NCBI GenBank assembly: GCA_040905475.1
Contig: JBBDRM010000078.1
Coordinates: 1 to 33,310, forward strand
Direction of reading: 5' to 3'
From: Actinomycetota bacterium
Lineage (GTDB): Bacteria > Actinomycetota > AC-67
Length of the DNA: 33,310 nucleotides
Positions 5,701-32,791 of the stretch are shown here, piece by piece (the stretch's first letter is position 1; every line of letters starts with the position of its first letter). Position numbers and translations under genes: made by a program. Below the pieces are notes generated by a model. That model was not told where the DNA came from. It made no database searches and worked only from the letters and a program-made list of their open reading frames with translations.

Positions 5701-5736
5701 CTCGCATGTCGGTTCGGTCTCATCGACAACTTGGAT

Positions 5737-9880: not shown

Positions 9881-9881
9881 C

Positions 9882-11306: not shown

Positions 11307-11323
11307 CTACTCCACCTCCCTTC

Positions 11324-13044: not shown

Positions 13045-13045
13045 C

Positions 13046-14323
13046 TCAGCTCCACCTCTCCGCGCTGGTCCCATTCAAGCGCGCGAGCGGGACGACGACA
13101 GCGGCTTCGGGCAACCGGTCGGCGAACCGTGGGCGAACACCGGTGCGCACGAGGCTCCCGTCCTCGTCACGGAACAGGTCGTTGGTCAGCACGCGCCCGG
13201 CTTCGAGGCCGGCGACCTCTGCAATCTGCACGACGCGTCGCCGGCCGGCGCGCTGATCCAGTCGAAGATGCACGACGAGATCGATGGTCTCCGCGATCAT
13301 CTCCGAGGCGATCTCGGACGAGACCTGCTCGTCGGCCATCAAGACGTACGTGCGCAGCTTCGACAAGGCCTGCCGCGCCGAGTTCGCATGGATGGTGCCC
13401 ATCGAACCCTCGTGCCCCGTATTCATCGCCGAGAGCATGTCGAGGGCTTCGGGGCCGCGAACCTCACCGACGATGATCCTGGTCGGACGCATCCGCAAAG
13501 CGTGGCGAACCAGATCGCGGATCGAGACACGGCCGGCACCTTCGATGTTGGCCGCGCGCGACTCCAGCGCCACGCAATCCGGGAGAACGTCCTCCAGCCG
13601 AAGCTCGACCGTCTCCTCGATGGTGACGATGCGCTCGTCGACGGGGATCGCGCGCCCGAGCGCGTTCAGCGTGGTGGTCTTCCCCGACGCCGTGCCACCG
13701 GAGACGAGGATGTTGAGCCCGCCGCCTACAGCGGCGTGCAGGAACTCTGCCGCATCACGCGGCAACGTGTCGAGGGCGACCAGCGCATCGAGATCCTCGG
13801 CGACCATCCGGTGGCGTCGGATCGTGAGGCAGGTTCGGCGCGCGAGTGGCGGGATGATCGCGTGAAGTCGCGCGCCGTCCGGCAGGCGCACGTCCACGGC
13901 GGGCGAAGCCTCGTCGATCCGGCGGCCGGCGCGCGCCACGACTCGGCTGAGTAGGGCGCGCAGTTCCTCCTCTGATGCGAACCCCGACGCGAGCGTTTCC
14001 TTTTCGCCGCCGGCACGGACGACGAAGCCCTGCTCGGGTCCGTTCACCACGATCTCCTCGACGTTCTCGTCGTCGAGCAACCGCTGCAGCGGACCCATGC
14101 GGAAGAAGATGTCGAACATCTCCCGCGCGATCTGGGTTCGCGACCCGGGCGAGAGCGCCTCGGAACCGGCGAGCACGCGACGTCTGTTCTCGCCTTCGAC
14201 CAACTCGACAAGGAGCGCCCACGCGCGCGCTTCGGTGTCCTCACCGCCGCCATCCGAGAGCGTGCCGCTCAGCTCTTCTTGCGCGCGGAGGCGCAGAGAC
14301 TCGACGACTTCGGCCGTCTTCAC
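13046..14323 (-). CDS. tadA: TadA/CpaF secretion ATPase
   Basis: This 425-aa protein starts at GTG 14323, overlapping the CpaE stop (GTGA). The P-loop is GGTASGKT (209-216). An Asp/Glu region RIVTIEETVELRL follows (231-243), then the Walker B region TRIIVGEVRG (281-290) and the His box HEGSMGTIHANS (304-315). These are the hallmarks of the TadA/CpaF branch of type II/IV secretion ATPases. It powers Flp pilus assembly as a hexamer at the inner face of the membrane. The N-terminal domain (1-120) is typical of CpaF. Confidence 0.95.
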   Translation of the reverse strand: MKTAEVVESLRLRAQEELSGTLSDGGGEDTEARAWALLVELVEGENRRRVLAGSEALSPGSRTQIAREMFDIFFRMGPLQRLLDDENVEEIVVNGPEQGFVVRAGGEKETLASGFASEEELRALLSRVVARAGRRIDEASPAVDVRLPDGARLHAIIPPLARRTCLTIRRHRMVAEDLDALVALDTLPRDAAEFLHAAVGGGLNILVSGGTASGKTTTLNALGRAIPVDERIVTIEETVELRLEDVLPDCVALESRAANIEGAGRVSIRDLVRHALRMRPTRIIVGEVRGPEALDMLSAMNTGHEGSMGTIHANSARQALSKLRTYVLMADEQVSSEIASEMIAETIDLVVHLRLDQRAGRRRVVQIAEVAGLEAGRVLTNDLFRDEDGSLVRTGVRPRFADRLPEAAVVVPLARLNGTSAERWS

Positions 14324-16151: not shown

Positions 16152-16363
16152 TCGGCAAGAAGAGCCGCTTAACCGCGAGTGTCAGCAGCGCAAGGAGTGA
16201 GGTAACCCAAATAGGCTGTTGTGCGCTACGGGCGAAGAACTACAGCAATGTAATTGTCGGTCGGCACGAGCAAGATGTCGTGCGAGCCTTTCTTGACGCT
16301 CGACTGCGCGTATCGAAGCATTGGCGCGCGGGGGTGATATTGGTTCCAGGGAGGATCAAGCAG

Positions 16364-16417
16364 TTGAACGCTTTCGAAGCACAACAAGTACTGACGCGCA
16401 AGGGCACGCGGAAATGA
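16364..16417 (+). CDS. Possible 17-codon leader ORF coupled to drmD
   Basis: A strong binding site, AGGGAGGA (16348-16355), lies 8 bases before TTG 16364, which opens an 17-codon frame (NAFEAQQVLTRKGTRK after the start). Its stop TGA overlaps the drmD ATG as ATGA. The drmD start itself has a weaker AAGGG site. The leader may feed ribosomes to drmD by coupling. The frame extends upstream to 16142 without a stop, so it could be the tail of a longer small gene; no better start is visible. Confidence 0.4.
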   Translation: MNAFEAQQVLTRKGTRK

Positions 16418-19400
16418 CGGAGCTAGGACAGCACAGAGGTGGGCGCGCAGCAGATCTGCTGCCGGAACGCCTGCCGGACGTGGGCGAGCTCGTTCATGTC
16501 CGATCCCGCCGCTGGCTCGTCGAGGATGTCGTCGAGCCCGACGATCCCGCGCACTCAGCGCGCGTCCAGCTCGCGTGCGCTGACGATGACGCGCAGGGGC
16601 AGATCCTCGAGGTCTTCTGGGATCACGAGATCGATCGCTGGATCATGGAAGAGGAAGGTTGGGCGGATCTCGCCTCGAAGGGTTTCGACCAGCCGGACCG
16701 GTTCGCGGCCTTCTTCCACACGCTGCGTTGGGGTTGCGTCACCGCGACCGACCCGGACCTGTTCCAGGCGCCGTTCCGCGCTGGCATCAAGATCGACGCA
16801 TATCAGATGGAGCCGCTCCGCAAGGCTTTGCGACTCCCGCGCGTCAACCTCTTCATCGCCGACGACACGGGCCTTGGCAAGACGATCGAGGCGGGGTTGA
16901 TCGCACGCGAGTTGCTGCTGCGCAAGAAGGCGAAGACGATCGTCGTAGGCGCGCCGGCATCGGTCCTCGAGCAATGGAAAGGAGAACTCGAGGACCGCTT
17001 CGGGCTGGCGTTCGAGATCTTGGACCGCAACTACATAACACGGATGCGACGCGAACGCGGGTTCGGCGTGAACCCGTGGCGCACGCACAGCCGATTCCTC
17101 ATCTCGCACAACCTGCTGATCAACCCGGCCTACGCGGACCCGATGCGCGAATGGCTAGGCCCAATGCTCCCTGGCAGCCTGCTCATCCTCGACGAAGCAC
17201 ACCACGCTGCACCGTCGAGCGGGGGCAAGTACGGGATCGAGACGAAGTTCACACGCGCGATCCGCGACCTCTCCTCGCGGTTCGAACATCGCCTGTTCCT
17301 CTCGGCCACGCCGCACAATGGCCACTCGAACAGTTTCTCGACGTTGATGGAATTGCTCGATCCCTACCGCTTCACGCGCGGCGTTCCGGTGCGGAAGGCA
17401 GCGATGGAAGAGGTGATGGTGCGTCGCCTCAAGGAGGACATCCGCAACGTCCAGGGTGGATTCCCGAAGCGCATCGTCGAGCGGGTCGCGATCGACGACC
17501 TGCCGGATGATGCGCCGGAGATCGTGCTGTCGAAGCTCCTCGACGAGTATCGAACCGCGCGGGAGGAACGGTTCAAAGGCACGAGCAAGCGCTCGCGGGC
17601 GGCCGCCGGACTGCTCGTCGTCGGGTTGCAGCAGCGACTGCTGTCATCGACCGAAGCGTTCGCTCGCACCCTGAAGGTTCACCGCGCCACGGTCGAGCGC
17701 CACTGGGAGAAGGCGGCGAAGGAAGCCACTGAGACCGCAACCGAGCACGATGCAAGTCTGTTCACGTCATCGCCGGACGCCGACGACGAGCGGGCGACAT
17801 GGGAGCCGGACGAGCAAGAGGCGGAGGAAGCCGCGCAGACGGAGAGCGTGACGCGGCTGGCCGAAGTCGAAACGAGCCGCGACGAGGAAGCTGAGCGGCT
17901 CTGGAAGCGTGAGCAAGCCCTGCTCGACCAGATGCAAACGATCACCGACCAGTCGCGGCACATGCCCGACGCGAAGGTTCGGTGCCTGCTCGACTGGATC
18001 CGCGACAACATGTGTCCCGATCTGCCGGCGTTCGGAAAGCAGCTCAAGGGTGCAGCGCCGACCTGGAACGAACGACGCGTGCTGATCTTCACCGAGAACC
18101 GCGAGGGAACGAAGCGCTACCTAAAGAGCATCCTGGAGCAAGCGATCGAAGGGACCGACCGCGCCGACGAGCGCATCGCGGTCATCGACGGTCTCACGGC
18201 GGGCGCGCGCCGCAAGGAGATCCAGCGACGCTTCAATGTGGATCCCGCGAAGGAGCCGTTGCGCATCCTGCTCGCAACCGATGCCGCGCGCGAAGGCCTC
18301 AACTTCCAGGCCCACTGCGCGGACCTGTTCCACTTCGACCTTCCATGGAATCCGGGGCGCATCGAGCAGCGCAACGGCCGTATCGACCGCAAATTGCAGC
18401 CCGCCGACGAAGTGCGCTGCCACTACTTCGTCCTGCCGCAGCGCGCGGAAGACCACGTCCTGGAGGTTCTCGTCAAGAAGACCGAGAGGATCAAGAAGGA
18501 ACTGGGCAGCCTCTCGAAGGTCATCGAAGACGATGTCGAGCGCATCCTTGCTCAGGGGATCCGCCACGCCGACGTGGACAAGCTCTTGCAGCAGATCGAG
18601 GACGCAGACATCGAGGCGGAGCGCAAGCGCCGGACCGAGGAAGAACTCGATGTAGCGAGGGATCGCGAAGAGAAACTCAAGACACAGATCGCGAAGTGCC
18701 AGACGCTCCTCGAGCGCTCGCGGGAGTGGGTCGGGTTCGAGGCACCAGCCTTCCGCAGCGCACTGTCTTGCTCGCTCGAACTGATCGGCTCCGAGGCCCT
18801 GACCGAGTCCACCGATGAACACGGACGCAAGGTCTGGACGTTCCCCCCGTTGGACCGTCGCGTCGAGACCGACCCGAGCTGGGCCGCGACGCTCGATTCC
18901 CTGCGCGTCCCGCGGCGCAGCGATCAGAAGGTAACGGACTGGCGGCGAGAAGCCCCTGTTCGCCCCGTCGTATTCGAAGACGCCGGTGTGCTCAGCGACG
19001 ACACGGTTCATCTTCACCTAGAGCAGCGCGTCGCCCAGCGGCTCCTGGCCCGGTTCCGCGCACAGGGCTTCATCCACCATGACCTGTCGCGCGCCTTCCT
19101 GGCGCAGGCAGCCGACTCCATCCCGCGCGTCATCCTGCTCGGCCGATTAGCGCTCTACGGGAGCGGAGCGGAGCGCCTCCATGAGGAGTTGGTTCCGATC
19201 ACTGCGCGGTGGCTCGAGCCTTCGCAGCGCAAGAAGCCGCTGAAGGCCTACGGGCGCGACGCGGAATCCAAGACCCTTGAGCTCCTGGATGAGTCACTGC
19301 AAGGGGGTCGCGTCCAGCCTAATGACGCGATCCGTGACAAGCTCCTCGATGCAGCCGCAGGGGACATCGCGGAGCTTCTCCCACAGCTCGAGCCACGCGC

Positions 19401-19728
19401 ACAAGAACTCGTCGCAGCCGCGACCGACAAGCTCCGCAGCCGCGGAGAACGCGAAAGGAAGGACCTCGTGGAAACGCTCGAGCGTCAGCGCGAGCGGGTC
19501 ATCGCCGAACTCGCGAAGCACGAGAAGGACCACAAGCAACTCACGCTCGACTTCGATGTCGAGGAGCGCCGGCAACTCGAGGCGAACATGGGTTTCTGGA
19601 AGACGCGCCTGAAGCAGTTCGACCAAGACCTTGAGACCGAGCCGCAGCGGATCAGAGACTTCTACGAGGTTCGCGCGCACCGCATTGAACCCGTGGGCCT
19701 GGTCTACCTCTGGCCGGAGACCAACTGA
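16414..19728 (+). CDS. drmD: DISARM class 1 SNF2-like helicase DrmD
   Basis: This 1104-aa protein is the first DISARM gene. Start ATG 16414 is coupled to the leader ORF. The SNF2 ATPase core shows motif I DDTGLGKT (150-157), DEAH (260-263), and SATPHNGH (297-304). The C-terminal helicase lobe has RVLIFTENREG (about 555), LLATDAAREGLNFQ (about 620) and RIEQRNGRIDR (about 650). Long Glu/Lys-rich, coiled-coil-like regions flank it (about 450-520 and 680-770). DrmD occurs only in class 1 DISARM, an anti-phage system that combines methylation of self DNA with blocking of incoming DNA. All key motifs are intact. drmMI starts two bases after its stop. Confidence 0.9.
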   Translation: MTELGQHRGGRAADLLPERLPDVGELVHVRSRRWLVEDVVEPDDPAHSARVQLACADDDAQGQILEVFWDHEIDRWIMEEEGWADLASKGFDQPDRFAAFFHTLRWGCVTATDPDLFQAPFRAGIKIDAYQMEPLRKALRLPRVNLFIADDTGLGKTIEAGLIARELLLRKKAKTIVVGAPASVLEQWKGELEDRFGLAFEILDRNYITRMRRERGFGVNPWRTHSRFLISHNLLINPAYADPMREWLGPMLPGSLLILDEAHHAAPSSGGKYGIETKFTRAIRDLSSRFEHRLFLSATPHNGHSNSFSTLMELLDPYRFTRGVPVRKAAMEEVMVRRLKEDIRNVQGGFPKRIVERVAIDDLPDDAPEIVLSKLLDEYRTAREERFKGTSKRSRAAAGLLVVGLQQRLLSSTEAFARTLKVHRATVERHWEKAAKEATETATEHDASLFTSSPDADDERATWEPDEQEAEEAAQTESVTRLAEVETSRDEEAERLWKREQALLDQMQTITDQSRHMPDAKVRCLLDWIRDNMCPDLPAFGKQLKGAAPTWNERRVLIFTENREGTKRYLKSILEQAIEGTDRADERIAVIDGLTAGARRKEIQRRFNVDPAKEPLRILLATDAAREGLNFQAHCADLFHFDLPWNPGRIEQRNGRIDRKLQPADEVRCHYFVLPQRAEDHVLEVLVKKTERIKKELGSLSKVIEDDVERILAQGIRHADVDKLLQQIEDADIEAERKRRTEEELDVARDREEKLKTQIAKCQTLLERSREWVGFEAPAFRSALSCSLELIGSEALTESTDEHGRKVWTFPPLDRRVETDPSWAATLDSLRVPRRSDQKVTDWRREAPVRPVVFEDAGVLSDDTVHLHLEQRVAQRLLARFRAQGFIHHDLSRAFLAQAADSIPRVILLGRLALYGSGAERLHEELVPITARWLEPSQRKKPLKAYGRDAESKTLELLDESLQGGRVQPNDAIRDKLLDAAAGDIAELLPQLEPRAQELVAAATDKLRSRGERERKDLVETLERQRERVIAELAKHEKDHKQLTLDFDVEERRQLEANMGFWKTRLKQFDQDLETEPQRIRDFYEVRAHRIEPVGLVYLWPETN

Positions 19729-19730: not shown

Positions 19731-22700
19731 ATGGCCAAGCTCGACCCCCAGGTTATCGACCACCTCGAGTGGCTCGGTTTCGTGCAGCCGACGGGCCTGG
19801 TCGTTTCGGCCCCAGCACTGGTACGCGCCGGCGCGATCCTCGATCGGCGTGATGTCGAAGGTCAGCGCCTGCTTCAGGCGAGCGTGGCCCAGCGGCCGGG
19901 TCCGACCGATGCAGACCCGGTCGACTACCTCCCGGACTTCCGTGCGTTCGCTGAGCAGGTTCTCGGATGGGGCTTCTCTCCCAAGGCTTACGCGGGCACA
20001 GACGAAGTCCCGGTGCCCGATGAGCTCTCGGTCGCCTTACCGGCCTACGACGAGATGTTGCGCCCCCACTTCGCCGTGCGCGATCTGGAGCCGGCCGAGG
20101 GTGCGTGCCGGTGGCAGTTGCTGGTCCGTGTGCTCGAGACCGGACAGGGGTTCGATGATGAGATCCGCGAAGGCGGGCATCTGGAAGCGAGCCCGACCAG
20201 CCGCATGGAGCGGCTGCTGCGCGAGAGCGGCGCCCCGGCGGGACTCCTGTTCAATGGTCATGCGCTGCGGCTGATCTCCGCGCCGCGCGGCGAAAGCTCG
20301 GGCTGGGTCAACTTCGCGGTCGCCGACATGCTCCAGACCGCGGGCCGGCCGATCTGCACCGCGATGCGCCTGCTGCTCGGTCAGACCCGGCTCCTCACCC
20401 TGCCAAGGAACCAACGGCTGCCCGCGCTGCTCGACGAGAGCCGCAAGTTCCAGAACGAGGTCAGCGAAAAGCTCGCCGAACAGGTCCTGCACGCACTGTA
20501 CGAACTGCTGCGCGGATTCCAGGCGGCCCACGACGCGAGCGGGGCCACGCTCCTGTGTGACCCGCTCCAGGACGATCCAGACGAGGCGTATCGCGCCTGG
20601 CTCACCGTTATCCTCAGACTCGTGTTCCTCCTGTACGCCGAGGAGCGCGACATGCTCCCCGGCGACGCCACCTACACCCAGCACTATTCGCTCGGTGGCC
20701 TCTTCGAACGCCTGCGCGAAGATGCGGCGCTGTTCCCGGACACGATGGACCAACGGTTCGGAGCGTGGGCACAGTTGTTGGTGCTGTTCCGGATTGTGTT
20801 CGACGGGGCGACGACGCTGGACCTGCCGCAGCGTCACGGCGCGCTGTTCGACCCGGACCGCTTCCCGTTCTTGGAGGGGCGCCGATCGGCAGGAAGCCGC
20901 CAAGTGCACGAACGCATCCAAGCACCGCTCGTCCCGGATGGAACCATCTACCGGGTGTTAGAGGACCTGCTCATCCTCGATGGTGAACGCATCTCGTACC
21001 GGGCGCTGGACGTCGAGCAGATCGGTTCGGTGTACGAGACCATGATGGGCTTCCGCCTCGAGACGACGACCGGAACCTCTGTCGCGGTGAAAGCGCAGAA
21101 GAAGCACGGCGCCCCGACGGCGCTCGACCTTGAGGAACTACTCGCCCAGCCGGGGAAGTCCCGGACCAAGTGGATCCTCGACCGCGCCGACCGCAAGGTT
21201 CCACCCAAGGTCGCGAAGTCTGCCGAAACCGCCGAGTCGCTCGCCGATCTGCATGCCGCGCTGGAGTCCATGATCGACAAGGCGGCCACGCCAGACCTCG
21301 TCCCCAAGGGCGCGATGGTGTTGCAGCCAAGCGAGGAACGCCGGCGCTCGGGCTCGCACTACACGCCGCGCGCCCTCACCGAACCGATCGTCCGAACGAC
21401 CTTCGAGCCGATCCTCGCGCGCCTCCGCGGAGGCGATGGCTTGGTGCCGACGCCCGAGCAGATCCTCGACCTCAAGGTCTGCGACCCCGCGATGGGGTCG
21501 GGGGCGTTCCTCGTCGAAGCCTGTCGGCAGTTGGGTGACGCTCTCATCGAGTCCTGGCGCGCGCACGATCAAGTTCCTGTCATCCCACCCGACGAGGACG
21601 AGGTCATCTTCGCGCGGCGCTTGGTCGCCCAACGCTGTCTCTACGGCGTAGACCGCAACCCGGTTGCCGTCGACCTGGCGAAGGTGTCGCTCTGGCTGGC
21701 GACTCTGGCGCGTAATCATGCCCTGACGTTCGTCGACCACGCCCTGCGTCACGGCGACTCCCTCGTCGGTCTCTCGGTGTCCCAGATCGAGAACTTCCAC
21801 TGGGATCCCGCCGTTGACTTCAAGAGGCCGCTTCGGGACCGCATGGTCGAGCACCTCGACGAGGTGTCGCGGTTGCGTTCGCAGATCCGTGAAGCGGACG
21901 AGGGCACCGGCGACTGGGAGTTGCGGGATCTGTGGGACAAGGCGTCCTTCGAACTCGACCGTGTGCGGCTGCTTGGTGATCTGGTCATCGCAGCCTTCTT
22001 CGAAGGCGCGAAGACAAGTGATCGCGAGGTCATCCGCACGCGCTACGTCCAAGCGGTCACCCAGGGTAATGCTCACGAGTATCGCGGAATGTTGAACGAC
22101 CTCCGCAGCGCGGATCCGCCACTCGTTCCCTTCCACTGGGAGATCGAGTTCCCCGAGTCATTCGACCGCGAGAACCCTGGCTTCGACGCAATCGTCGGCA
22201 ACCCCCCTTTCGCGGGTCGCACCACAACTACGCACGCGAACGCGTCTGGGTACCTAGACTGGCTGAAGCTGTTGCACGAAGGTAGCCACGGCAACTCGGA
22301 CTTGGTCGCCCATTTTTTCCGCCGAGCCTTCACGCTGATTCGAAGTGACGGAGCGTTCGGGTTGATTGCCACCAACACAGTCGCGCAAGGAGATACTCGG
22401 GCAACCGGTCTCTATTGGATCCGAGCAAATGGCGGTGAGATCTATAGCGCGGAAAGGCGTCGGAAGTGGCCGGGCAGAGCTGCGGTAGTAGTGAGTGTGG
22501 TTCATGTCGCGAAAGGGCGCCTACTCAATCGACCGACCATCGACCGTCAGCCCGTAGAGAAAATCACTGCCTTCCTCTTCCACGCTGGGGATGATTCCGA
22601 TCCATCGAGGCTCCGATCGAATGCCCGACGGGCCTTCCAGGGAAGCGTGGTCGTAGGCCTCGGCTTCACGTTCGACGAATCAGACGGAGAGGGGGAAGCT

Positions 22701-23699
22701 AACTCAATGACGGAACTGGCGCGCCTGCAAGTCGAAGATGAGCGGTGTCGCCAAGTCATATACCCGTACATAGGAGGAGAGGACCTGGCGTCCAATCCCC
22801 ACCATAAGCACCAACGGTACATCATCAACTTCGGTTCGCGTTCTGAGGCTGATTGTCGGAGAGAGTGGCCAATGCTTATGAATATCGTCGAGGCGAAGGT
22901 GCGCCCCACCAGGGAGGCTGCACTTGCCAAGTCCTTCAGCAAAGACAAGGCCAAGCGGGCTGAACGATGGTGGCAATTCGCGCGAACGGCCGGGGAACTA
23001 TACGAGGCCATTGAGCATATCAGTCGTGTTCTTGCGATCTCTCAGACTAGTGCGACGCCAGCATTCGCGTTCCTTCCGAAGGGAATGGTCTATTCCAACA
23101 AGCTCGTATTGATAGCTCTAGATTCGTGTGCGGCCTTTGCCGCACTGCAGAATCGCGTTCATGATGAATGGTCGCGCTTCTTCGGCTCAACGATGAAGGA
23201 CGACCCCGTTTACACGCCCTCGGACTGTTTCGAGACGTTCCCGTTCCCCGAGAATTGGGAAACGCACCCGGATCTCGAGACGGTCGGCAAGGCTTACTAC
23301 GAGTTCCGCGCGGACCTGATGATCCGCAACGACGAAGGGCTCACGAAGACCTACAACCGTTTCCATGATCCCGACGAGCGCGACCCGAGAATCATGAAAC
23401 TCCGCGAACTGCACGCTGCGATGGATCGTGCGATGCTCGATGCCTATGGCTGGAACGATGTGCCGACCGATTGCGACTTCCTGTTGGACCACGAGGTCGA
23501 CGAAGAGGACAGCAAGCGCAAGAAGCCGTGGCGGTATCGCTGGCCCGACGAGGTCCGCGACGATGTTCTCGCGCGGCTGCTGCAACTCAACGCCGAGCGC
23601 GCCGCCGCCGAGACCCGTTCCGGTGCGACCCCCAAGCGAGCAACGGGGCGGTCCAAGCGTGAGGGACAGATCCCTGAAACGTTGGGTCTTTTCGAATGA
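19731..23699 (+). CDS. drmMI: DISARM class 1 N6-adenine DNA methyltransferase DrmMI
   Basis: This 1322-aa protein carries the S-adenosylmethionine-binding motif DLKVCDPAMGSGAFLVEACRQ (about 578-598) and the catalytic NPPF (about 823-826) in FDAIVGNPPFAGRT. This order is that of gamma-class N6-adenine methyltransferases of the large Type IIG/PglX kind. The N-terminal region (1-500) is helical, as in related large enzymes. Sequence after NPPF, to about residue 1150, is the probable target recognition part. In DISARM the enzyme marks host DNA. The base composition drops in that part (about 53% GC in 23041-23160 against about 68% in 21421-21480), suggesting exchange of the recognition region. It ends with ATGA into the next gene. 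Confidence 0.9.
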   Translation: MAKLDPQVIDHLEWLGFVQPTGLVVSAPALVRAGAILDRRDVEGQRLLQASVAQRPGPTDADPVDYLPDFRAFAEQVLGWGFSPKAYAGTDEVPVPDELSVALPAYDEMLRPHFAVRDLEPAEGACRWQLLVRVLETGQGFDDEIREGGHLEASPTSRMERLLRESGAPAGLLFNGHALRLISAPRGESSGWVNFAVADMLQTAGRPICTAMRLLLGQTRLLTLPRNQRLPALLDESRKFQNEVSEKLAEQVLHALYELLRGFQAAHDASGATLLCDPLQDDPDEAYRAWLTVILRLVFLLYAEERDMLPGDATYTQHYSLGGLFERLREDAALFPDTMDQRFGAWAQLLVLFRIVFDGATTLDLPQRHGALFDPDRFPFLEGRRSAGSRQVHERIQAPLVPDGTIYRVLEDLLILDGERISYRALDVEQIGSVYETMMGFRLETTTGTSVAVKAQKKHGAPTALDLEELLAQPGKSRTKWILDRADRKVPPKVAKSAETAESLADLHAALESMIDKAATPDLVPKGAMVLQPSEERRRSGSHYTPRALTEPIVRTTFEPILARLRGGDGLVPTPEQILDLKVCDPAMGSGAFLVEACRQLGDALIESWRAHDQVPVIPPDEDEVIFARRLVAQRCLYGVDRNPVAVDLAKVSLWLATLARNHALTFVDHALRHGDSLVGLSVSQIENFHWDPAVDFKRPLRDRMVEHLDEVSRLRSQIREADEGTGDWELRDLWDKASFELDRVRLLGDLVIAAFFEGAKTSDREVIRTRYVQAVTQGNAHEYRGMLNDLRSADPPLVPFHWEIEFPESFDRENPGFDAIVGNPPFAGRTTTTHANASGYLDWLKLLHEGSHGNSDLVAHFFRRAFTLIRSDGAFGLIATNTVAQGDTRATGLYWIRANGGEIYSAERRRKWPGRAAVVVSVVHVAKGRLLNRPTIDRQPVEKITAFLFHAGDDSDPSRLRSNARRAFQGSVVVGLGFTFDESDGEGEANSMTELARLQVEDERCRQVIYPYIGGEDLASNPHHKHQRYIINFGSRSEADCRREWPMLMNIVEAKVRPTREAALAKSFSKDKAKRAERWWQFARTAGELYEAIEHISRVLAISQTSATPAFAFLPKGMVYSNKLVLIALDSCAAFAALQNRVHDEWSRFFGSTMKDDPVYTPSDCFETFPFPENWETHPDLETVGKAYYEFRADLMIRNDEGLTKTYNRFHDPDERDPRIMKLRELHAAMDRAMLDAYGWNDVPTDCDFLLDHEVDEEDSKRKKPWRYRWPDEVRDDVLARLLQLNAERAAAETRSGATPKRATGRSKREGQIPETLGLFE

Positions 23700-25279
23700 G
23701 CGAGAAGAAGCCGCCTATCCAGTCCTTGACCGTCTTCCTCATCAAGACGGGCACGAAGGCGTATGAGGAGGCTCTCGACGAAGACGAGGTCAGGGTCCTC
23801 ACCCGATATGAACTCGACTCATCCACGCCATTCGAGGGGGTCGTGTTCCTGGGGCCTCAGCAAACCGCTCAGCCGCGATGGTTCGACTTCCTCGAGGCTG
23901 GCGTGAAGGGGAATCTCGATCGTCGCCGTAACTCAAACACTAGCTCCGTCCTCTTCATCAAATCCGCAAAGAGAATCCTTGCTTTCACCTTCGGCTACGG
24001 CAGAAGCTGGTTGCGGCCGAACCGGATCGAGCGGGGGTTCGGGCTTCGTGTCGTGCTCAACACGGTCGACGAGGCCGGGTTGCGAAGCGTCGATACGAAG
24101 ACGGTGCAGGAGCTAACGGTGCACACTCGCCGCCAGACCAGCCGCAGCTCGCGGCTTTCAGAATTCGGGGTCGACAAGGAGGAGGACCTCCTAGGCTCTG
24201 TGGCGGGCGTGCCCAGCGACCCAGCTTTTGCAAGAGTCGTGAGCGGCGCCGACGCCCTGCAGTTTCGAGCGTCGCTCGAATTCGGCGACCTCGGAGCCAA
24301 ATGCCGGGAAGTCCTAAACGCGTACCGGAGTGACAGCTACAAGAAGCGGGGATTCGAGTTCGTGGATCACGTCAAGACTGTGACGGATCCGGAAATGATC
24401 GGAATGCTGGACGAACAACTCCTGCCGGCTCTTCGACTCGGGAGCAGTGATGGGCTACACATGGCACCGCCCGAGATAGTCGACTGCGACAGGATTGACG
24501 GGTTCAGTTTCGTCAAGAGTGGGGCTCCAGAACCGGACCTGTCGCTCGGATCGCTCCATGCCCAGATTCGCAGTCCAGAGAACATCTCCATCGAGCGACT
24601 CCGACGCCAACGGATCTTCCTTCATTTTGCGGAGTCCGCGGAGCCAATCTCGAGGTGGTCCGTCTATCGCGCCCTCGTTGCTGAGAGGGACGTGAAGGGG
24701 CGGCGCTATGTCCTCTCCGGGGGCGAATGGCATGAGATCGAGAAACAGTTCTCCAAGAGAATCGACAACCGGGTCGATCGCATCCCAAGGGCAGGTCTGA
24801 ACCTCCCGTCGGCGAAGCAAGGTGAGTATGAAGGGGCATACAACAAACGTGCAGCTGGGCGCGGCATCTATCTCCTGGACAAGAAGTGTGTGCGCGCCGA
24901 CGGGGACCAGATCGAGTTGTGCGACCTTTACGTAAGCAACGATCGTCAGTTTGTCCACGTGAAGCGATGGAACCAGTCCTCGACGCTAAGCCATCTCTTC
25001 GCACAGGCCCGAGTTTCCGCAGAGGCCTTCCTGTCCGATGAGGGGTTCCGTGAGGAGGCGCGGGTGCTCCTGGCGGATCGCGCCGCCTCCCTCGCTGCGC
25101 ATGTCCCTCGCGACCGTCCGGATCCAAATCGCTATCGAGTCGTCTTCGCCATTATCAAAGGCGGACCGGGCTGGAGGCGTGCACTTCCATTCTTCTCCAA
25201 GTTGCATCTAGTGCGGTCAGCTGAGTCGCTCCGGACCTTGGGGTTCGACGTACGCCTCGAGAGGATAGAAGTCGAATGA
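23696..25279 (+). CDS. DUF6119/TIGR04141-family protein embedded in the DISARM operon
   Basis: This 527-aa protein overlaps drmMI and drmA by ATGA at both ends, so it is a built-in operon member. Family-like stretches are LFIKSAKRILAFTFGYGRSWL (about 86-106), ERGFGLRVVLNTVDEAGLRSVDTKT (about 112-136), RQTSRSSRLSEFGVD and, late, VHVKRWNQSSTLSHLFAQARVSAEAFL. These match my memory of the sporadically distributed TIGR04141/DUF6119 family. The C-terminal half has E407, D410 and HVK (K423) in IELCDL...FVHVK, a spacing reminiscent of a PD-(D/E)xK nuclease core. The standard class 1 DISARM list (drmD, drmMI, drmA, drmB, drmC) does not include it as far as I know. Function is unknown; a nuclease or sensor role is inference. 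Confidence 0.75.
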   Translation: MSEKKPPIQSLTVFLIKTGTKAYEEALDEDEVRVLTRYELDSSTPFEGVVFLGPQQTAQPRWFDFLEAGVKGNLDRRRNSNTSSVLFIKSAKRILAFTFGYGRSWLRPNRIERGFGLRVVLNTVDEAGLRSVDTKTVQELTVHTRRQTSRSSRLSEFGVDKEEDLLGSVAGVPSDPAFARVVSGADALQFRASLEFGDLGAKCREVLNAYRSDSYKKRGFEFVDHVKTVTDPEMIGMLDEQLLPALRLGSSDGLHMAPPEIVDCDRIDGFSFVKSGAPEPDLSLGSLHAQIRSPENISIERLRRQRIFLHFAESAEPISRWSVYRALVAERDVKGRRYVLSGGEWHEIEKQFSKRIDNRVDRIPRAGLNLPSAKQGEYEGAYNKRAAGRGIYLLDKKCVRADGDQIELCDLYVSNDRQFVHVKRWNQSSTLSHLFAQARVSAEAFLSDEGFREEARVLLADRAASLAAHVPRDRPDPNRYRVVFAIIKGGPGWRRALPFFSKLHLVRSAESLRTLGFDVRLERIEVE

Positions 25280-28200
25280 GAACTACGTCACCGGTCGAAG
25301 TCCGTGAAAGTCTCGTGCAGGCCCTTCGACTCGACCTGGTCGGCCCCTGGGTCGATCATGCGTTCATCGACGAGCAACTGCCGGGTTGGGTTCGCCCGTC
25401 GACCTGGTATCTGGGAGGGTTCTTGATCCCCTCGGGAAGCCCGCCTGAATCCCAGGGTGACGACGATGAGAGTGACGACGTCGACGAGATCCCGGAGTCG
25501 GGTGGCGCCAGCGAAGAGAACGCCGACGATCGCAAGGCCGCCAAGAAGGGGTTCTTCCCGTCCTCGATGGGGCTGAGCTTCCTCACGCCGGCCGGCGCGA
25601 ACGACCTGACCGTGACCGTCCGTTGGGGGGACTACCGACAGGTAGACGCGCCGCCCGATGGGGCGAACGGCGAGGGCGGAGGCGACGGCGACGGCGACGG
25701 CGACGGCGAGGGGGATGCGGGAAGCGGCAACGGCGAGGGCGGGAAGTCCTCGAAGAAACTTTGGCAGCGTTTCGAGCGCATTGAGCGAATCACGGTCCCG
25801 GTCGCGTCCAAGGTTCATCCGGTTCCGAACTCGGATGGCCTCGAGGTGCAGGTGGTCGAACGTCCGATCTCCGATGAGATGGACGAGCAGATCCCGCGCG
25901 GAACCCGCTCCGTTTCGGTGTTCCTGGTCAACCGGCGGACTCCCAACGAGGACGCACCGGACGAAGGATTCGTGTTCCAGGCGGAGTTGCGGGTGGGGTG
26001 CGAACGGCCCTTCGTGCCGCGGCCGGATCTGCGGGGCCGGCTCGCCGAAGACTGGGACGAACAAGTCGCGGACCTTCATTTCGCGGACTCTCCCGGATAC
26101 GCGACCGGCCACGGGGTTTCGGTCGGGTGGACGATCACCGACGACGAGAGTCGCGAGCTGTGGACCACCTGGATCCCCGACGCCGAGGTCGAGAAGACCG
26201 CCACGGTCGCGGTTGCGGGAGTCGAACTCGCGATGGAGGCCCTCGGCGCGTTGACGGACGGCGCCGCCGCGAAGGCGGCGCTCGAGCCGCTGGTCCAGCA
26301 GTACCGGACCTGGATCGATGAGCGTCGACCGCTGATCGACGCGCTGTCGGGATCGCGTCGTGACGCGGCGGAAGAACTCGTTCGACTCGCTGGGATCGCG
26401 GCGGATCGGATCGAGCGCGGTATAGACGTGCTCGCGTCCGATCCGGACGCGTTGGATTCTTTCCGTGTCGCGAACCGAGCCGTGTCGCGGGCGCTGCGGC
26501 GTCGGCTCGATATCGCGGACCCGAAGTGGCGGGCGTTCCAGCTTGCGTTCATCCTGCTGAACTTGCCCGGACTCGCCGATCCGACCGATCCTCATCGAGA
26601 GACGGTCGATCTGTTGTTCTTCCCGACCGGCGGCGGGAAAACGGAGGCCTACCTAGGCCTGGCCGCATTCACGATGGTCCTGCGCCGCTTGCGGCATCCG
26701 CAGGACGCTGGTCTTGCTGGTGCGGGGGTCAGTGTCATCATGCGTTACACGCTGCGACTGCTGACACTCGATCAGCTTGCGCGCGCGGCAGGTCTCGTGT
26801 GTGCGCTCGAACTCGAACGAGAGGCCGATGTTCCGCGGTACGGGACGTGGTCCTTCGAGATCGGGCTGTGGGTGGGCAAGGCGGCAACGCCCAACATCCT
26901 CGGAAAGAAGGGTGATGGCCGCAGCGACAGCGCGCGAGCGAAGGTCAATCAGTTCAAGAACGACCCGAAGAGTAAGCCGTCACCGATCCCGCTCGAGAAC
27001 TGTCCGTGGTGCGATGCGCGCTTCCAACCGACATCGTTCACTTTGCTTCCCGATAGCGATAAACCAAGCGAACTGCGCATCGTCTGCGCGAACTTCGAGT
27101 GTGACTTCACGCGCGACCGTCCTCTGCCGATCGTCGCCGTAGACGAGCCCATCTATCGTCGCCTCCCTGCCTTCCTCGTTGCGACGGTTGACAAGTTCGC
27201 CTCCCTGCCGTGGGTTGGCACCTCGGGCGTGTTGCTCGGCGGTGCTGACCGCCACGATGCTCACGGGTTCTACGGACCCGCGGAGCCCGGGCAGGGGGGT
27301 CGGCTGGAGGCGCCGCTGCCGCCGCCCGATCTGATCATCCAAGACGAGCTCCACCTGATCTCGGGCCCCTTGGGCACGATGGCAGGTCTGTATGAGTCGG
27401 CCATCGAGGCGCTCTGCGCGCGCGAGTTGGATGGGCGACCGGTACGACCGAAGATCGTGGCTTCCACGGCGACCGCGCGGCGCGCGCAGGACCAGGTGCA
27501 GGCGCTATTCGCTCGGCCGATCACGCACGTCTTCCCACCACCGGGTCCGGATCGGCGTGACTCGTTCTTCGCTCGCACGCTTCCATCGACCGAGGTGCCA
27601 GCGCGCCTCTACATCGGGATCGCGGCACAGGGTCGCAACCCGAAGGTTCTCATGCGGCGGGCATGGCTCGCCCTGATGGGCGCGGCTGAGCGCGCCTATC
27701 GCGACGCGGGCGGCCACAAGAACACCGACAACCCCGCCGACCCCTACATGACGGGACTCGGGTACTTCAACGCGCTCCGCGAACTCGGTGGTGCTCGTCG
27801 CATCCTCGAAGAAGAAGTGCAGAACACGGTGAAGGAGTACGGAGCGCGCAAACGCATCGGCGAGGACCCTGGGCTGTTCCATGACCGCAAGACCTTCTCG
27901 GAGGTCCTCGAGCTCACCTCACGTGTGCCGACCGACAAGATCGCGGAGGCGCGGAGACGCCTGGGGCTTGCATTCCACGAGAAGCAGCGCGTGGACTGCG
28001 CGATCGCGACGAACATGATCTCGGTGGGTCTCGACATCCAGCGGCTCGGGCTCATGCTCGTGCTCGGACAACCGAAGACCCATTCGGAGTACATCCAGGC
28101 GACCAGCCGCGTTGGCCGAGATGATTCCAAGCCGGGCCTGGTCGTGACTCTGCTGAACATCCACAAGCCGCGCGACCGGTCGCACTACGAGCGGTTCCGT

Positions 28201-28725
28201 CACTACCACGACACCTTCTATCGGTCAGTCGAAGTCGCGAGCGTCACGCCGTTCTCTGCGCGCGCGCTCGACCGTGGATTGGCAGGGGCGCTGGTGACGC
28301 TTGCCCGTCACAGGGAGCCGTTGCTGACACCGCATCGCGGTGCAGAGAAGATCGCTGCTGTGCGCGCCGACCTCGAGGTTGCGCTGCTCGACACTTTCCG
28401 GGCTCGACTCGAACAGCAACCCATCAGCGATCCGGCTGAACTGAACGAACGGCTGCTGAGCGTGCGTAGCCGCATCGTGGATCTCCTCGACTCGTGGCTC
28501 AAGATCGTCGACGACTATCAGCAGGCAGGTGTTGAGGTTCAGTACCAGAAGTACGAAACGGTTCGCGCGGCTGCACGCCCGCTGCTTCGTGAGATGTTGG
28601 ATGAGGACTTCGAGACCGAGCACCACCGGAAGTTCCGCGTGAACCGTTCGCTGCGCGACGTCGAGCCACAGGTCAATCTGTTCATTAGGGATCTCACCGG
28701 AACCAAGGGCGGGGGCGGCAAGTGA
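25276..28725 (+). CDS. drmA: DISARM helicase-like protein DrmA
   Basis: This 1149-aa protein starts at ATG 25276 inside the previous stop (ATGA). Residues about 129-156 form an acidic Gly/Asp/Glu linker. The helicase core has PTGGGKT (450-456), a DEAD-like QDELH (689-693), STATARR (about 728) and, in the second lobe, ATNMISVGLDIQRLGL (about 910-925) and QATSRVGRD (about 943). A zinc-finger-like insertion has Cys576, Cys579, Cys604 and Cys609. DrmA is one of the three core proteins (A, B, C) of all DISARM systems. With DrmB it is thought to act on incoming DNA. All motifs look intact. Confidence 0.92.
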   Translation: MRTTSPVEVRESLVQALRLDLVGPWVDHAFIDEQLPGWVRPSTWYLGGFLIPSGSPPESQGDDDESDDVDEIPESGGASEENADDRKAAKKGFFPSSMGLSFLTPAGANDLTVTVRWGDYRQVDAPPDGANGEGGGDGDGDGDGEGDAGSGNGEGGKSSKKLWQRFERIERITVPVASKVHPVPNSDGLEVQVVERPISDEMDEQIPRGTRSVSVFLVNRRTPNEDAPDEGFVFQAELRVGCERPFVPRPDLRGRLAEDWDEQVADLHFADSPGYATGHGVSVGWTITDDESRELWTTWIPDAEVEKTATVAVAGVELAMEALGALTDGAAAKAALEPLVQQYRTWIDERRPLIDALSGSRRDAAEELVRLAGIAADRIERGIDVLASDPDALDSFRVANRAVSRALRRRLDIADPKWRAFQLAFILLNLPGLADPTDPHRETVDLLFFPTGGGKTEAYLGLAAFTMVLRRLRHPQDAGLAGAGVSVIMRYTLRLLTLDQLARAAGLVCALELEREADVPRYGTWSFEIGLWVGKAATPNILGKKGDGRSDSARAKVNQFKNDPKSKPSPIPLENCPWCDARFQPTSFTLLPDSDKPSELRIVCANFECDFTRDRPLPIVAVDEPIYRRLPAFLVATVDKFASLPWVGTSGVLLGGADRHDAHGFYGPAEPGQGGRLEAPLPPPDLIIQDELHLISGPLGTMAGLYESAIEALCARELDGRPVRPKIVASTATARRAQDQVQALFARPITHVFPPPGPDRRDSFFARTLPSTEVPARLYIGIAAQGRNPKVLMRRAWLALMGAAERAYRDAGGHKNTDNPADPYMTGLGYFNALRELGGARRILEEEVQNTVKEYGARKRIGEDPGLFHDRKTFSEVLELTSRVPTDKIAEARRRLGLAFHEKQRVDCAIATNMISVGLDIQRLGLMLVLGQPKTHSEYIQATSRVGRDDSKPGLVVTLLNIHKPRDRSHYERFRHYHDTFYRSVEVASVTPFSARALDRGLAGALVTLARHREPLLTPHRGAEKIAAVRADLEVALLDTFRARLEQQPISDPAELNERLLSVRSRIVDLLDSWLKIVDDYQQAGVEVQYQKYETVRAAARPLLREMLDEDFETEHHRKFRVNRSLRDVEPQVNLFIRDLTGTKGGGGK
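25681..25704 (+). repeat. GGCGAC hexanucleotide repeat (four copies) inside drmA
   Basis: Four perfect GGCGAC units encode Gly-Asp four times (residues 136-143), followed by GGCGAG. They sit in the acidic Gly-rich linker between the N-terminal domain and the helicase core. Slippage would change linker length by two residues per unit and keep the frame. Confidence 0.8.
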
Positions 28726-30515
28726 GCAAGCGGGGGCACGGACAGGTTCGGCGGAGCCAGATCATCACCACATACGGTCCCGGCGCACTCATCGACCTCC
28801 CGGATCACTCGGCCATCGTCGGCGGGCTGGACACGTGGGGGAAACTCGACGACCTGGACGAGATCATCGAGCCGCGGCTGACGCGAAAGCTTCAGAACAT
28901 GACCGGCGTGATCGCCCCACGCCTGTACTCACCGCCGCCAGACTCCAACGACCCTCGTGAGACTAAGAAGGGAATCGGCGTGTGGCGGTTCCCGGAATGG
29001 TTCGTGGTCCGCGAGAAGGATGGAGCAGGTCAGAGGTCGCGCTCGCGCAGACTCGTTTCGCGGAAGGCGCTCGACGACAATGGCCGCTTCGACGGACTTC
29101 AGGTCGTCCCGACGCGCTTCGTGCGCGCATGCCCTCGTGGCCATGTGGACGACCTCGATTGGTATGTGTACGTCCATGGAACTCAGAGTGACTGTTTGCG
29201 AACGAGGCAACTGTGGCTCGATGAACGGGGAACCGGCGGAGACCTCGGAGACCTCACCGTTCGGTGCGAATGCAAAGCATCGAGGCCGCTCTATGAGGCC
29301 AGCAACATCGAGACCATGCCGCTGGGGATGTGTCGCGGTCGTCGCCCATGGTTGGGACTCAACAGCGCCGAGGACTGCAACCAGCCGAGCCGGTTGTTGA
29401 TCCGGACCGCAGCCAACGCGTACTTCCCGCAAGTGGTCAGCGTGCTCTCCCTGCCCGAGCGTGGGTCCGCCGTCCAAGTGGTCGTTCGCGATTTGTGGAC
29501 ACAACTCCAAACCGTTGAGAGTCCGGCGGAGCTGGCATTCTTGAAGAAGCAGCCGCAGATCACCGAGAAGCTCGCTCCCTTCTCTGACGCCGAAGTCATG
29601 GATGCCATCCAGGAGATCAAGGGTGGCGCCCAGGTCGAGCGACCGGTCAAGGAGGTGGAACTCGAAGCTCTGTTGGCAGCACCCGATGGGTACGGCGACG
29701 ACGTCCCCATGGACCCGGACTTCCACGCACGCCGCCTACCGGAGCACGTCTGGCGGAACGCCAAAGTGTCGGATGACGTGGAGTCGGTCCTTCAGCTTCA
29801 CCGGCTCCGCGAGGTGATGGGATTGGTCGGCTTCACCCGCTTCGAGGCGGTGACGCCGGACATCCACGGCGAATATGAGACCGACGTTGAACGCGCCGAC
29901 ATCGCCCTTGAGCCTTCGTGGTTCCCGGCCGTCGAGAACCGCGGGGAAGGCGTGTTCATCCAGATACGCGCGGACGCGATCGAGCGCTGGCTGAAGGAAT
30001 CCGGCGTTGCCGGTCGGCTGGACCTCCTCGCCCTTGGGCACAGGCGCTGGGCGGATGCTAGGAAGAGCAAGCGACTCTTTCCCGGAGGGCCATACGTCCT
30101 CTTGCACACCCTCGCTCACCTGCTCTTGCAATCGCTGGCGATGAGCTGCGGGTACCCGGCGAGCTCTATCCGGGAGCGGATCTACACCGAAGGAGGACGG
30201 TACGGGATCCTTCTCTACACAGGAAGTCCGGACTCCGAAGGTACGCTCGGCGGCCTCGTTCAGCAGGCGCGCCACATCGAGGAGCATCTCGCGCGCGCAC
30301 TCCGGATGGGCGCCCTCTGTTCGAACGACCCGATCTGCGCTCAGCATGAGCCTGGGTCCAGTCTGGAAGAGCGTTGGCTCCACGGGGCGTCGTGTCATGG
30401 CTGCGCGTTGATCGCGGAGACGTCGTGCGAGATGCGCAACGACTACCTCGACCGGGCGCTCGTCCTCCCTATCCTCGGCGTTGACGACGCCGCCTTCTTC
30501 GTCGATGGCGTGTGA
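28722..30515 (+). CDS. drmB: DISARM DUF1998 protein DrmB
   Basis: This 597-aa protein starts at GTG 28722, overlapping the drmA stop (GTGA). The N-terminus RRSQIITTYGPGALIDLPDHSAIVGG is typical of DrmB. The C-terminal DUF1998 region shows LLHTLAHLLLQSLAMSCGYPASSIRERIY (about 464-492) and GILLYTGSPDSEGTLGGLV. Cys clusters CSNDPIC and CHGCALIAETSC (about 530-565) probably bind zinc. DrmA and DrmB form a complex required for DISARM. The length is as expected, and the stop overlaps drmC. Confidence 0.92.
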   Translation: MSKRGHGQVRRSQIITTYGPGALIDLPDHSAIVGGLDTWGKLDDLDEIIEPRLTRKLQNMTGVIAPRLYSPPPDSNDPRETKKGIGVWRFPEWFVVREKDGAGQRSRSRRLVSRKALDDNGRFDGLQVVPTRFVRACPRGHVDDLDWYVYVHGTQSDCLRTRQLWLDERGTGGDLGDLTVRCECKASRPLYEASNIETMPLGMCRGRRPWLGLNSAEDCNQPSRLLIRTAANAYFPQVVSVLSLPERGSAVQVVVRDLWTQLQTVESPAELAFLKKQPQITEKLAPFSDAEVMDAIQEIKGGAQVERPVKEVELEALLAAPDGYGDDVPMDPDFHARRLPEHVWRNAKVSDDVESVLQLHRLREVMGLVGFTRFEAVTPDIHGEYETDVERADIALEPSWFPAVENRGEGVFIQIRADAIERWLKESGVAGRLDLLALGHRRWADARKSKRLFPGGPYVLLHTLAHLLLQSLAMSCGYPASSIRERIYTEGGRYGILLYTGSPDSEGTLGGLVQQARHIEEHLARALRMGALCSNDPICAQHEPGSSLEERWLHGASCHGCALIAETSCEMRNDYLDRALVLPILGVDDAAFFVDGV

Positions 30516-31294
30516 TGCGTCGGATCATCGATCTGCCCCCGCACCTGAAGAAGCGACTCGCCGGCGCACTCGACTCCGGCATGCTGACAGAGCCGTTCGC
30601 CCCGGGCGCCGTCCGTTCCGTCCTCGGCGTCAGCGAAGGCATCGACGACGTGTGCGCCGCTCTTCTGGAACTCACCAAACTGGGAATCATGGGTCGGGCT
30701 GCCGGCGCGTGGATCCGCACGGTCGATGAGATGGCCGCGCGCGTCGCGCAACCGGACCTGGTGTGGTCTGGTCCCGAGGTTCCCGGACTCCATGCGCGCG
30801 ACACCCGGCGCGTCTATGAGGAACTTCTCGGCTCGGCCGAGCGATCGGTCTGGGCCAGCACATACGCATTCTTCGATGGCCCCAAAGCGTTCAAGGTCAT
30901 CGCCGATCGGATGGCCGCGATCCCCACGCTCCGCGTCACGCTCTTGATGAACATCCAGCGCAAACGGGGAGACAATAGCGCCGCCGACCAACTGGTCCGC
31001 CGGTTCGCCGATCGTTTCTGGAGCGTTGAATGGCCTGGTGAGAGTCGACCGACCGTCTACTACGATCCGCGGGCGCTCGAACTTGGGGGTCCTGGCGGCG
31101 TCCTCCACGCGAAGGCCGTCGTGACCGACGACGTGGCTGTGTTCGTCACGTCGGCGAACCTCACTGAAGCCGCGCTAGACCGCAATATCGAGATTGGGAT
31201 CCTCATCCGCGATCGCGCCCTCGCGCTAAGTGTCGCCACACACTTTCAGGGCCTGATCGATCAGGGATTGCTGGCCCCTTTGCCCGGAGCGTGA
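30515..31294 (+). CDS. drmC: DISARM phospholipase D-like protein DrmC
   Basis: This 259-aa protein starts at ATG 30515 (TGATG overlap with drmB; GTG 30512 is the alternative). It has a single HKD-type motif, H198-A-K200 with D205, followed by TSAN and then ALDRNIEIGILI. One motif per chain suggests a dimeric PLD-fold nuclease like Nuc. The N-terminal 90 residues are helical. DrmC is the third core DISARM protein, reported as less essential than DrmA and DrmB. It is the last gene of the operon. Confidence 0.9.
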   Translation: MRRIIDLPPHLKKRLAGALDSGMLTEPFAPGAVRSVLGVSEGIDDVCAALLELTKLGIMGRAAGAWIRTVDEMAARVAQPDLVWSGPEVPGLHARDTRRVYEELLGSAERSVWASTYAFFDGPKAFKVIADRMAAIPTLRVTLLMNIQRKRGDNSAADQLVRRFADRFWSVEWPGESRPTVYYDPRALELGGPGGVLHAKAVVTDDVAVFVTSANLTEAALDRNIEIGILIRDRALALSVATHFQGLIDQGLLAPLPGA

Positions 31295-31467: not shown

Positions 31468-32070
31468 TCATCGCGTTGTGCGTAGCAGCATCTGTATCTG
31501 CGATTTCGTTTCGATCGCCTCCGAGCAGTAGGTACGCCGGATCCGAGTGACAGCTCGCTTCGTGCTCATCCCTTGCAGGATCAGGAGCGCCGCAAGCGTG
31601 GTTCCGGTGCGTCCGTGCCCGCCGGCACATCCGATCTCGACGCGCTTGCCTTGCGCGGCTTGGTTCAGTACCCAGTGCAACGCGCGCATGAACCTACCTG
31701 GCTCGCGTGGAACGCCGAGGTCCGGCCATGGGTAAACGAGCAGCTTCGACGGCCGATACTGCGCGAAGCGTGGACGGAACCCCGGCGAGCAAAGCATCGT
31801 GACGCTTGCCCAACTGCCGTCAAGGTACATGCCGACGTCGGGCCATTCCATGTCGATATGGCCTTGGGGTCGGTCGAACCAAGCGGACGCGAACACGGTG
31901 ACACCGTCGAGCAATTCGACGGGTTCACGCCAGTGCCGGCATTGCGGTCGCCATGGAGCGATCCGCGTGGGCGCGCTCGGCAACCTTCTGTTGTGCGTGG
32001 GTCCTTCCCAGTCGGGCACTCCCTCGTCGAAGTCGTCCCAGTAGGCGTCCATCTCACGTTCTTGGGTCAT
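31468..32070 (-). CDS. Protein tyrosine / dual-specificity phosphatase
   Basis: This 200-aa protein starts at ATG 32070 behind AGGAAGAG. The catalytic loop is C148-AGGHG-R154 (Cys-x5-Arg), followed by TGTTLAALLI, and the WPD loop is present as YPWPDLGVP with the general acid D117. Both hallmarks of cysteine-based protein phosphatases are therefore intact. The N-terminal 60 residues are Pro/Trp/Arg-rich and unlike common family members. It is the last gene of a three-gene minus-strand set. Its substrate is unknown; it may hydrolyse phosphotyrosine or another phosphate ester. Confidence 0.75.
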   Translation of the reverse strand: MTQEREMDAYWDDFDEGVPDWEGPTHNRRLPSAPTRIAPWRPQCRHWREPVELLDGVTVFASAWFDRPQGHIDMEWPDVGMYLDGSWASVTMLCSPGFRPRFAQYRPSKLLVYPWPDLGVPREPGRFMRALHWVLNQAAQGKRVEIGCAGGHGRTGTTLAALLILQGMSTKRAVTRIRRTYCSEAIETKSQIQMLLRTTR

Positions 32071-32083
32071 CGCTCTTCCTTTC

Positions 32084-32791
32084 TCACGCGACGTCGTCGT
32101 AGCTGTCGAGGATCTGCACGCCGAGCCAGGTGGGATCGTGGTCGGCGCGCTGCAAGTAGTCCTGACGCCGCCATCGCCGCCTGACATCTACCGAGGCGTG
32201 GTGAAGCAGGACGGGATAGTCGTCGGCTCCATGTGCTTCGAGCACTTCGGGCAACTTGGAAACGTTGTAGAGCTTGTTCAAGATGCACCCGGTGTTGTGC
32301 TGAAGGTTGAAACACTGATCGACGAACAGGCGCGGCTTTCGTTTGCCTTCGAGATACGGACGGAGTGCGCGCACGGCGCACGCCCACGGGTAGCCGCCGA
32401 AGTTTCGCCGCCATCCGGGATTTCCGAATGCTTCCTCGGCGAGGTCGAGCGCATCGAGGCCGAACTTGCGTCGGATGACGGTCCACACGAGCCATGCTTT
32501 GCCGCGCGCGGTGTCGGAAACCTCGCGGAAGAACGGTTCGAGTTCGGGCGGCAACTCTTCGAGGTAGCGCTTGGCGTAGCGAAGCTCTCCGCCGATGGCC
32601 ATGTCGAGGTATCCGGCGAACTCGTTGGCGAGGGTGCGTTCGTGTCGGTCGAGTAGCTCGCATGCGAGTGCGTCGCCTCGCACGTTGGCGAGGTTTTCGA
32701 GGAGATAGAAGTCGGCGGCGTCCTGGGTGATGTCACGGTCGGGATCGAGGCGCCGGCCGCGCGCGACTGTGCGTTCGTTGATCGTGGACAT
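32084..32791 (-). CDS. Unrecognised 235-aa protein
   Basis: The start is ATG 32791, with a strong site AAGGAGGAGG just upstream. The 235-residue product is soluble, helical-looking and rich in Arg, Leu and Glu (VRGDALACELLDRHERTLANEFAGYL; LEELPPELEPFFREVSD). Tryptophans are frequent in the middle (KAWLVWTVIRRKFG; NPGWRRNFGGYPWACAVRALRPYL). No known domain is recognised. It is flanked by a RadC-like gene 26 bases before and the phosphatase gene 13 bases after, so it is part of one operon, typical of plasmid or integrative-element accessory modules. Confidence 0.65.
   Translation of the reverse strand: MSTINERTVARGRRLDPDRDITQDAADFYLLENLANVRGDALACELLDRHERTLANEFAGYLDMAIGGELRYAKRYLEELPPELEPFFREVSDTARGKAWLVWTVIRRKFGLDALDLAEEAFGNPGWRRNFGGYPWACAVRALRPYLEGKRKPRLFVDQCFNLQHNTGCILNKLYNVSKLPEVLEAHGADDYPVLLHHASVDVRRRWRRQDYLQRADHDPTWLGVQILDSYDDVA

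Follow-up and report, generated by a model that had tools for sequence, protein, structure and literature searches.

Is a gene that is embedded, with overlapping ends, in a complete class 1 DISARM operon a component of that system or a guest within it? The question is raised by a reading frame encoding a 527-amino-acid DUF6119/TIGR04141 protein in a 33,310-nucleotide stretch of actinomycetotal DNA (contig JBBDRM010000078.1, assembly GCA_040905475.1), the whole of which is referred to here as the window. An earlier note on this DNA had taken the product to be either a sixth DISARM component or the mark of a variant subtype.

The operon and the gene within it

The gene, which starts with ATG, lies between drmMI and drmA and shares an ATGA with each of them (Table 1), as had previously been described. 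The matches of its product to both family models run end to end, and the gene is therefore intact; DUF6119 is the only annotation of the protein in Pfam. The surrounding genes named in the earlier note were borne out by PADLOC and NCBIfam scores that were above cut-off or very high for all five drm genes, which lie on the same strand with gaps of -4 to +2 bases and, in the order drmD-drmMI-DUF6119-drmA-drmB-drmC, constitute a complete class 1 DISARM operon in its usual arrangement. No family of the PADLOC DISARM models matched the 527-residue protein, and its absence from both the PADLOC and the NCBIfam models agrees with the earlier placing of the gene outside the class 1 set. That it is translated with the system is a reading of the overlaps; the accompanying statement that it is no passenger does not follow from them. 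An assembly artefact was rejected, the reading frames and overlaps being intact on both sides. The operon is adjoined by a divergent Tad/Flp pilus operon, and a tyrosine-phosphatase-like gene converges on the end of the DISARM operon.

Table 1. Features of the window, contents of the drmMI-drmA slot in other class 1 DISARM operons, and associated loci.
Locus	Feature	Position	Strand	Support or remark
Window	drmD, SNF2-like helicase	16321..19728	+	NF038317, 1016 bits (cut-off 610)
Window	drmMI, adenine methyltransferase with MmeI-type target recognition domain	19731..23699	+	PADLOC DrmMI, 1281 bits; Pfam Eco57I, MmeI_TRD
Window	TCGAATGAG, 9-bp direct repeat, drmMI/DUF6119 junction copy	23692..23700	+	
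Window	ATGA, DUF6119 gene start overlapping drmMI stop	23696..23699		
Window	DUF6119/TIGR04141 gene in drmMI-drmA slot	23696..25279	+	Pfam DUF6119 (PF19614), 1-524 of 524, 488 bits (cut-off 27); TIGR04141, 1-516 of 516, 475 bits (cut-off 35)
Window	C-terminal domain, residues 350-527, putative nuclease-like core	24743..25276	+	Conservation in 66 homologues; pLDDT 96.7
Window	TCGAATGAG, 9-bp direct repeat, DUF6119/drmA junction copy	25272..25280	+	
Window	ATGA, DUF6119 gene stop overlapping drmA start	25276..25279		
Window	drmA, YprA-family helicase	25276..28725	+	NF038325, 1134 bits (cut-off 950)
Window	drmB, DUF1998/MZB protein	28722..30515	+	NF038324, 548 bits (cut-off 240)
Window	drmC, phospholipase D-like nuclease	30512..31294	+	NF038319, 161 bits (cut-off 133)
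Window	Tyrosine-phosphatase-like gene	31468..32187	-	
L043	Slot: methyl-directed AspBHI/Mrr-type endonuclease			525 bits
L044	Slot: HTH-type and SDH-type protease genes		opposite	
L048	Slot: Schlafen-AlbA_2/HATPase protein			
L164	Slot: MqsA and SecB with IS element			
L166, L167, L176, L177, L186	Slot: HTH-ImmA/IrrE cassettes			Operons of Pseudomonadota; domain scanned in L176, the other four assigned by sequence likeness and annotation
L169	Slot: three genes		antisense	
L188	Slot: insert of ~1 kb			
L189	Slot: PARIS-like AAA_15 and DUF4435 pair, overlapping drmMI end	8892..10875		Trichormus variabilis plasmid; DUF4435 slightly below cut-off
L190	Slot: HATPase and Methyltransf_35			
L042	~1257-amino-acid gene, convergent after drmMI	9179..12952	-	Weak PADLOC match to PD-Lambda-4_A
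L051	Class 1 DISARM operon with two tandem drmMI	3426..11790	-	
L077	Relative of the L042 gene	2784..3803	-	
L119	DrmD-like SNF2 helicase, DUF6119, type III-type methylase	6957..13140		Neisseria
L161	HrgA between hsdS and hsdR	11109..12038		Vibrio rotiferianus plasmid

The drmMI-drmA junction

Twenty-eight class 1 operons with drmMI and drmA on one stretch, the source locus included, were read junction by junction. At least one extra gene occupied the drmMI-drmA junction in 14 of the 28, and in 14 the two genes were abutting or nearly so. Comparison within these same loci, a small sample partly hand-picked from plasmid matches, indicated that occupancy was concentrated there: the drmD-drmMI junction held a gene in 2/28 (p 0.0008) and the drmA-drmB junction in 0/27 (p 1e-5), and when five related HTH-IrrE cassettes were counted once the drmMI-drmA figure became 10/24 (p 0.007 and 2e-4). 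The junction is a variable slot, whose contents are set out in Table 1, and the slot itself may be undescribed. At the source locus the occupant is the DUF6119 gene; in a close relative of that operon (L055, with DrmA 52% and DrmMI 49% identical) the same junction is empty.

Several further observations were made in these operons. The HTH-ImmA/IrrE regulators are in most cases followed by a small protein that appeared PIN-like by eye. In the operon with tandem drmMI genes, ~1.1 kb separates drmD from the first drmMI copy. In Myxococcus eversor (L079, L178), the DUF6119 gene lies apart from the class 1 DISARM operon, whose slot is empty. The genome with the closest drmD and drmMI, in which no drmA was seen, carries a long gene convergent after drmMI (L042); a relative of this gene converges on the closest homologue of the DUF6119 protein (L077).

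Neighbourhoods and predicted structure of DUF6119 proteins

Homologues were collected from genome contigs of many phyla and an archaeal MAG using a query of five closer sequences, a scan of genome contigs with the 527-residue protein as the single query having given no matches, and the resultant 80 loci were read together with as much as 10 kb of flanking sequence in either direction. Most were solitary, with no adjacent restriction-modification (R-M) gene and wide gaps on both sides, which agrees with the description 'sporadically distributed' in the family name; the family thus does not depend on having an R-M partner. An R-M-type gene was present nearby at about 15 of the 80 loci by our count (a lower bound, few query proteins having been used for such neighbours) and on several plasmids.

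The clearest cases were type I operons. The arrangement hsdS-DUF6119-hsdR, with genes adjoining or overlapping, was found on four alphaproteobacterial plasmids (Actibacterium, Mesorhizobium, Mameliella and Paracoccus) and in an Aenigmatarchaeota MAG, and the gene directly follows a type IIG enzyme in L088 and in L077, the latter holding the closest relative (57% identity). In both the type I and the type IIG cases it sits, as at the source locus, right after a methylase or specificity gene. A BREX locus (L078) has the order pglZ-brxL-DUF6119 with a gap of 161 bases, and in Neisseria (L119, L124) the gene has a SNF2 helicase on one side and a type III methylase on the other. Sets of these three kinds of gene, the helicase being DrmD-like and the methylase type III-type, also recur in L114 and L125; in the two Neisseria genomes the genes overlap. 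On the Vibrio rotiferianus plasmid, HrgA fills the position held by DUF6119 in type I operons elsewhere, and immediately upstream of that operon is a gene for a DUF6119 protein.

On balance these data favour regarding the DUF6119 gene as an interchangeable accessory of methylation-guided operons, probably a backup nuclease effector, which at the source locus occupies the variable drmMI-drmA slot. A bolder version, possible but advanced only tentatively, would make the junction a slot dedicated to cargo, namely second-line effectors that can replace one another, and would see in DUF6119 a new nuclease-effector family that guards BREX, DISARM and systems of type I, type IIG and type III-like kind, each time coupled to the methylase or specificity gene. 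The foremost alternative is a stand-alone restriction nuclease with a target of its own, sharing only transcription with DISARM, as most members of the family appear to be. The preponderance of solitary homologues and the separation of the two in Myxococcus eversor are consistent with such independence, but repeated tight or overlapping insertion after methylase or specificity genes of unrelated systems suggests that the coupling matters, and this alternative is considered rather unlikely.

A full-length structure model of the protein (pLDDT 92.1, pTM 0.86) and one of its C-terminal domain were used to consider what such an effector might do. Conservation across 66 homologues was strongest in the C-terminal domain, in which E379, D395, E407, D410, H421 and Q437 were invariant (66/66) and K423 was present in 65/66, the conserved motifs being H421-x-K423, SHLF and E407xxD410. 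The modelled order of helix, three strands, helix and strand recalls the alpha-beta-beta-beta-alpha-beta core of PD-(D/E)xK enzymes. For the residues expected in that superfamily, an acidic one on strand 2 and (D/E)-x-K on strand 3, the invariant E407xxD410 and K423 would be candidates, although all 66 homologues begin the latter motif with His, giving H-x-K in place of the usual E-x-K. The top PDB match of the domain in Foldseek was a weak one to the CdiA-CT toxin chain 4g6u (probability 0.75, E 0.006, TM ~0.3), a nuclease of related fold; neither model gave a PDB match at E<0.001. A profile search of PDB sequences gave no match, a low-threshold Pfam scan of the 66 C-terminal domains recovered no nuclease family, and comparison of the C-terminal profile with one Mrr-type and one Shedu sequence, each a single template and hence a weak test, returned nothing. 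The predicted fold and the conserved residues make a nuclease-like C-terminal domain plausible, and the model suggests that the protein is fairly probably a nuclease; from the predicted fold, a killing step exerted by it would be plausible as well.

The full-length model, when searched in Foldseek, matched RdgC proteins over ~300 columns (probability 0.69-0.87 and 0.80-0.82, with low TM-scores) and a phage protein annotated as an exonuclease (E 2.4e-5); the RdgC-like stretch presumably sits in the long N-terminal part. Profile comparison with RdgC by hhalign gave a probability of 0.1%, and membership of that family was not evident at the sequence level. That the protein combines a DNA clamp with a nuclease is a possibility suggested tentatively by these models. 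The same matches, being the best structural ones over such a length, together with the non-canonical H-x-K motif, would also be compatible with a non-catalytic DNA-binding regulator, a clamp like RdgC or RexA that tunes methylation or restriction. However, it is the C-terminal domain that is most strongly conserved, at charged residues of a kind common in active sites, and hhalign found no RdgC sequence similarity, so that a purely regulatory role is judged distinctly improbable.

For the favoured accessory effector, the following course of events may be envisaged. The gene would have been inserted into the variable slot between drmMI and drmA, and its product would be co-produced with the methylase and helicase. 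The N-terminal part may hold on to DNA much as RdgC does, and the C-terminal nuclease-like domain, of PD-(D/E)xK-type topology with an unusual H-x-K motif, would most likely act on nucleic acid, the protein probably serving as a second, backup effector that cuts phage DNA or nucleic acid of the cell once DISARM is either engaged or inhibited. Observed directly are the position of the gene, its conservation, the variability of the slot and the recurrence of the family in other operons of R-M type; the nuclease fold is a prediction, and both the backup function and what sets it off are inferred.

Relation to DISARM and to known systems

The proposal of the earlier note, a true sixth component that would mark a new subtype of class 1, is in keeping with the complete operon and with the ATGA overlaps on both sides of the gene, but recurrence with DISARM in other genomes, by which core membership was judged, was not found. 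DrmMI, DrmA and DrmB were absent from the flanks (up to 10 kb) of all 80 homologue loci, where the only DISARM-like matches were SNF2 helicases with weak DrmD similarity; the number of homologues between drmMI and drmA, the check that the note itself had named, was accordingly 0/80. Conversely, DUF6119 was present in none of the 27 other class 1 operons, so that no recurring subtype emerged, and the empty junction of L055 points the same way. Within the phylum, 11 of 397 genomes carried DUF6119 and 13 carried DrmD above cut-off, with both in the source genome alone, against 0.36 expected by chance (probability of at least one, 0.31). Among 399 Pseudomonadota, a sample centred on a genome chosen for having DUF6119, the counts were 11 for DUF6119, 5 for DrmA and 0 for both, and on plasmids no accession was common to the 32 DUF6119 records and the 60 listed of 85 DrmA records. 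The association of DUF6119 with DISARM is so far that of a single locus, the only one of those examined with a family member inside a DISARM operon, and co-occurrence is at the level of chance, an outcome that the earlier note had itself named as refuting; a sixth component is thus very improbable. A standard class 1 gene was also rejected, DUF6119 being absent from DISARM models and not recurrent with the system.

Composition and flanking repeats bear upon how the gene came to its position. Its GC content of 59.9% is the lowest in the operon (63.3-65.2% for the five drm genes), and its codon distance is the largest, although drmC is nearly as far. The 9-bp direct repeat TCGAATGAG occurs twice in the window, once at each DUF6119 junction and nowhere else. 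The five matching bases beyond the ATGA fixed by the overlap have a chance of ~0.0015, a figure for a repeat chosen after being seen, and shuffled windows contained at least two copies in 7 of 100 cases; the repeat may be due to chance, and is compatible with insertion at a former drmMI/drmA overlap. DUF6119 and DrmA were both absent from four other genomes of the same class, and the whole island was therefore probably acquired. A passenger without a role, kept briefly after insertion, might account for the divergent composition and for the repeat as an insertion footprint, but with a full-length frame retaining every invariant residue, and a family that recurs in the same kind of position, it is scarcely credible.

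The accessory effector favoured here has counterparts among known systems. The prrC gene lies inside the type I EcoprrI operon and encodes a latent anticodon nuclease that is held in the R-M complex (PMC3874165; PMC2610378). It is likewise an effector gene within an R-M operon, but the likeness is one of operon position only, PrrC being by annotation of a different protein family from DUF6119. BREX loci carry exchangeable auxiliary or backup effectors, including PD-(D/E)xK, Schlafen and PARIS proteins, embedded in a methylation-guided system (PMC12839542). The DISARM slot holds effectors of the same kinds, namely a methyl-directed endonuclease, a Schlafen protein and a PARIS-like pair, although the set was described for BREX rather than DISARM and DUF6119 is not named in it (PMC12839542). 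PARIS is triggered by an anti-restriction protein. The RdgC fold also occurs in RexA, a phage-exclusion protein that binds DNA (PMC11077077); the likeness of the DUF6119 model to RdgC extends over the ~300 columns noted above, at low TM-scores and with no similarity in sequence. The literature searched contained no described function for DUF6119 or TIGR04141, and no paper naming either as defence.

Compared with class 1 DISARM itself, the source operon has the five genes in their usual order and differs by a single drmMI-drmA gene that is absent from the PADLOC and NCBIfam models and from the other loci examined. DISARM can do without DrmC, and recruitment of other nucleases has been proposed for DrmAB (PMC9142583). 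The slot and the family found in it merit tests: a variable slot with nuclease-type genes is a direct place to look for the DNA-destroying activity of the system, and DUF6119, which recurs next to methylases in lineages far apart, offers a concrete and assayable candidate effector.
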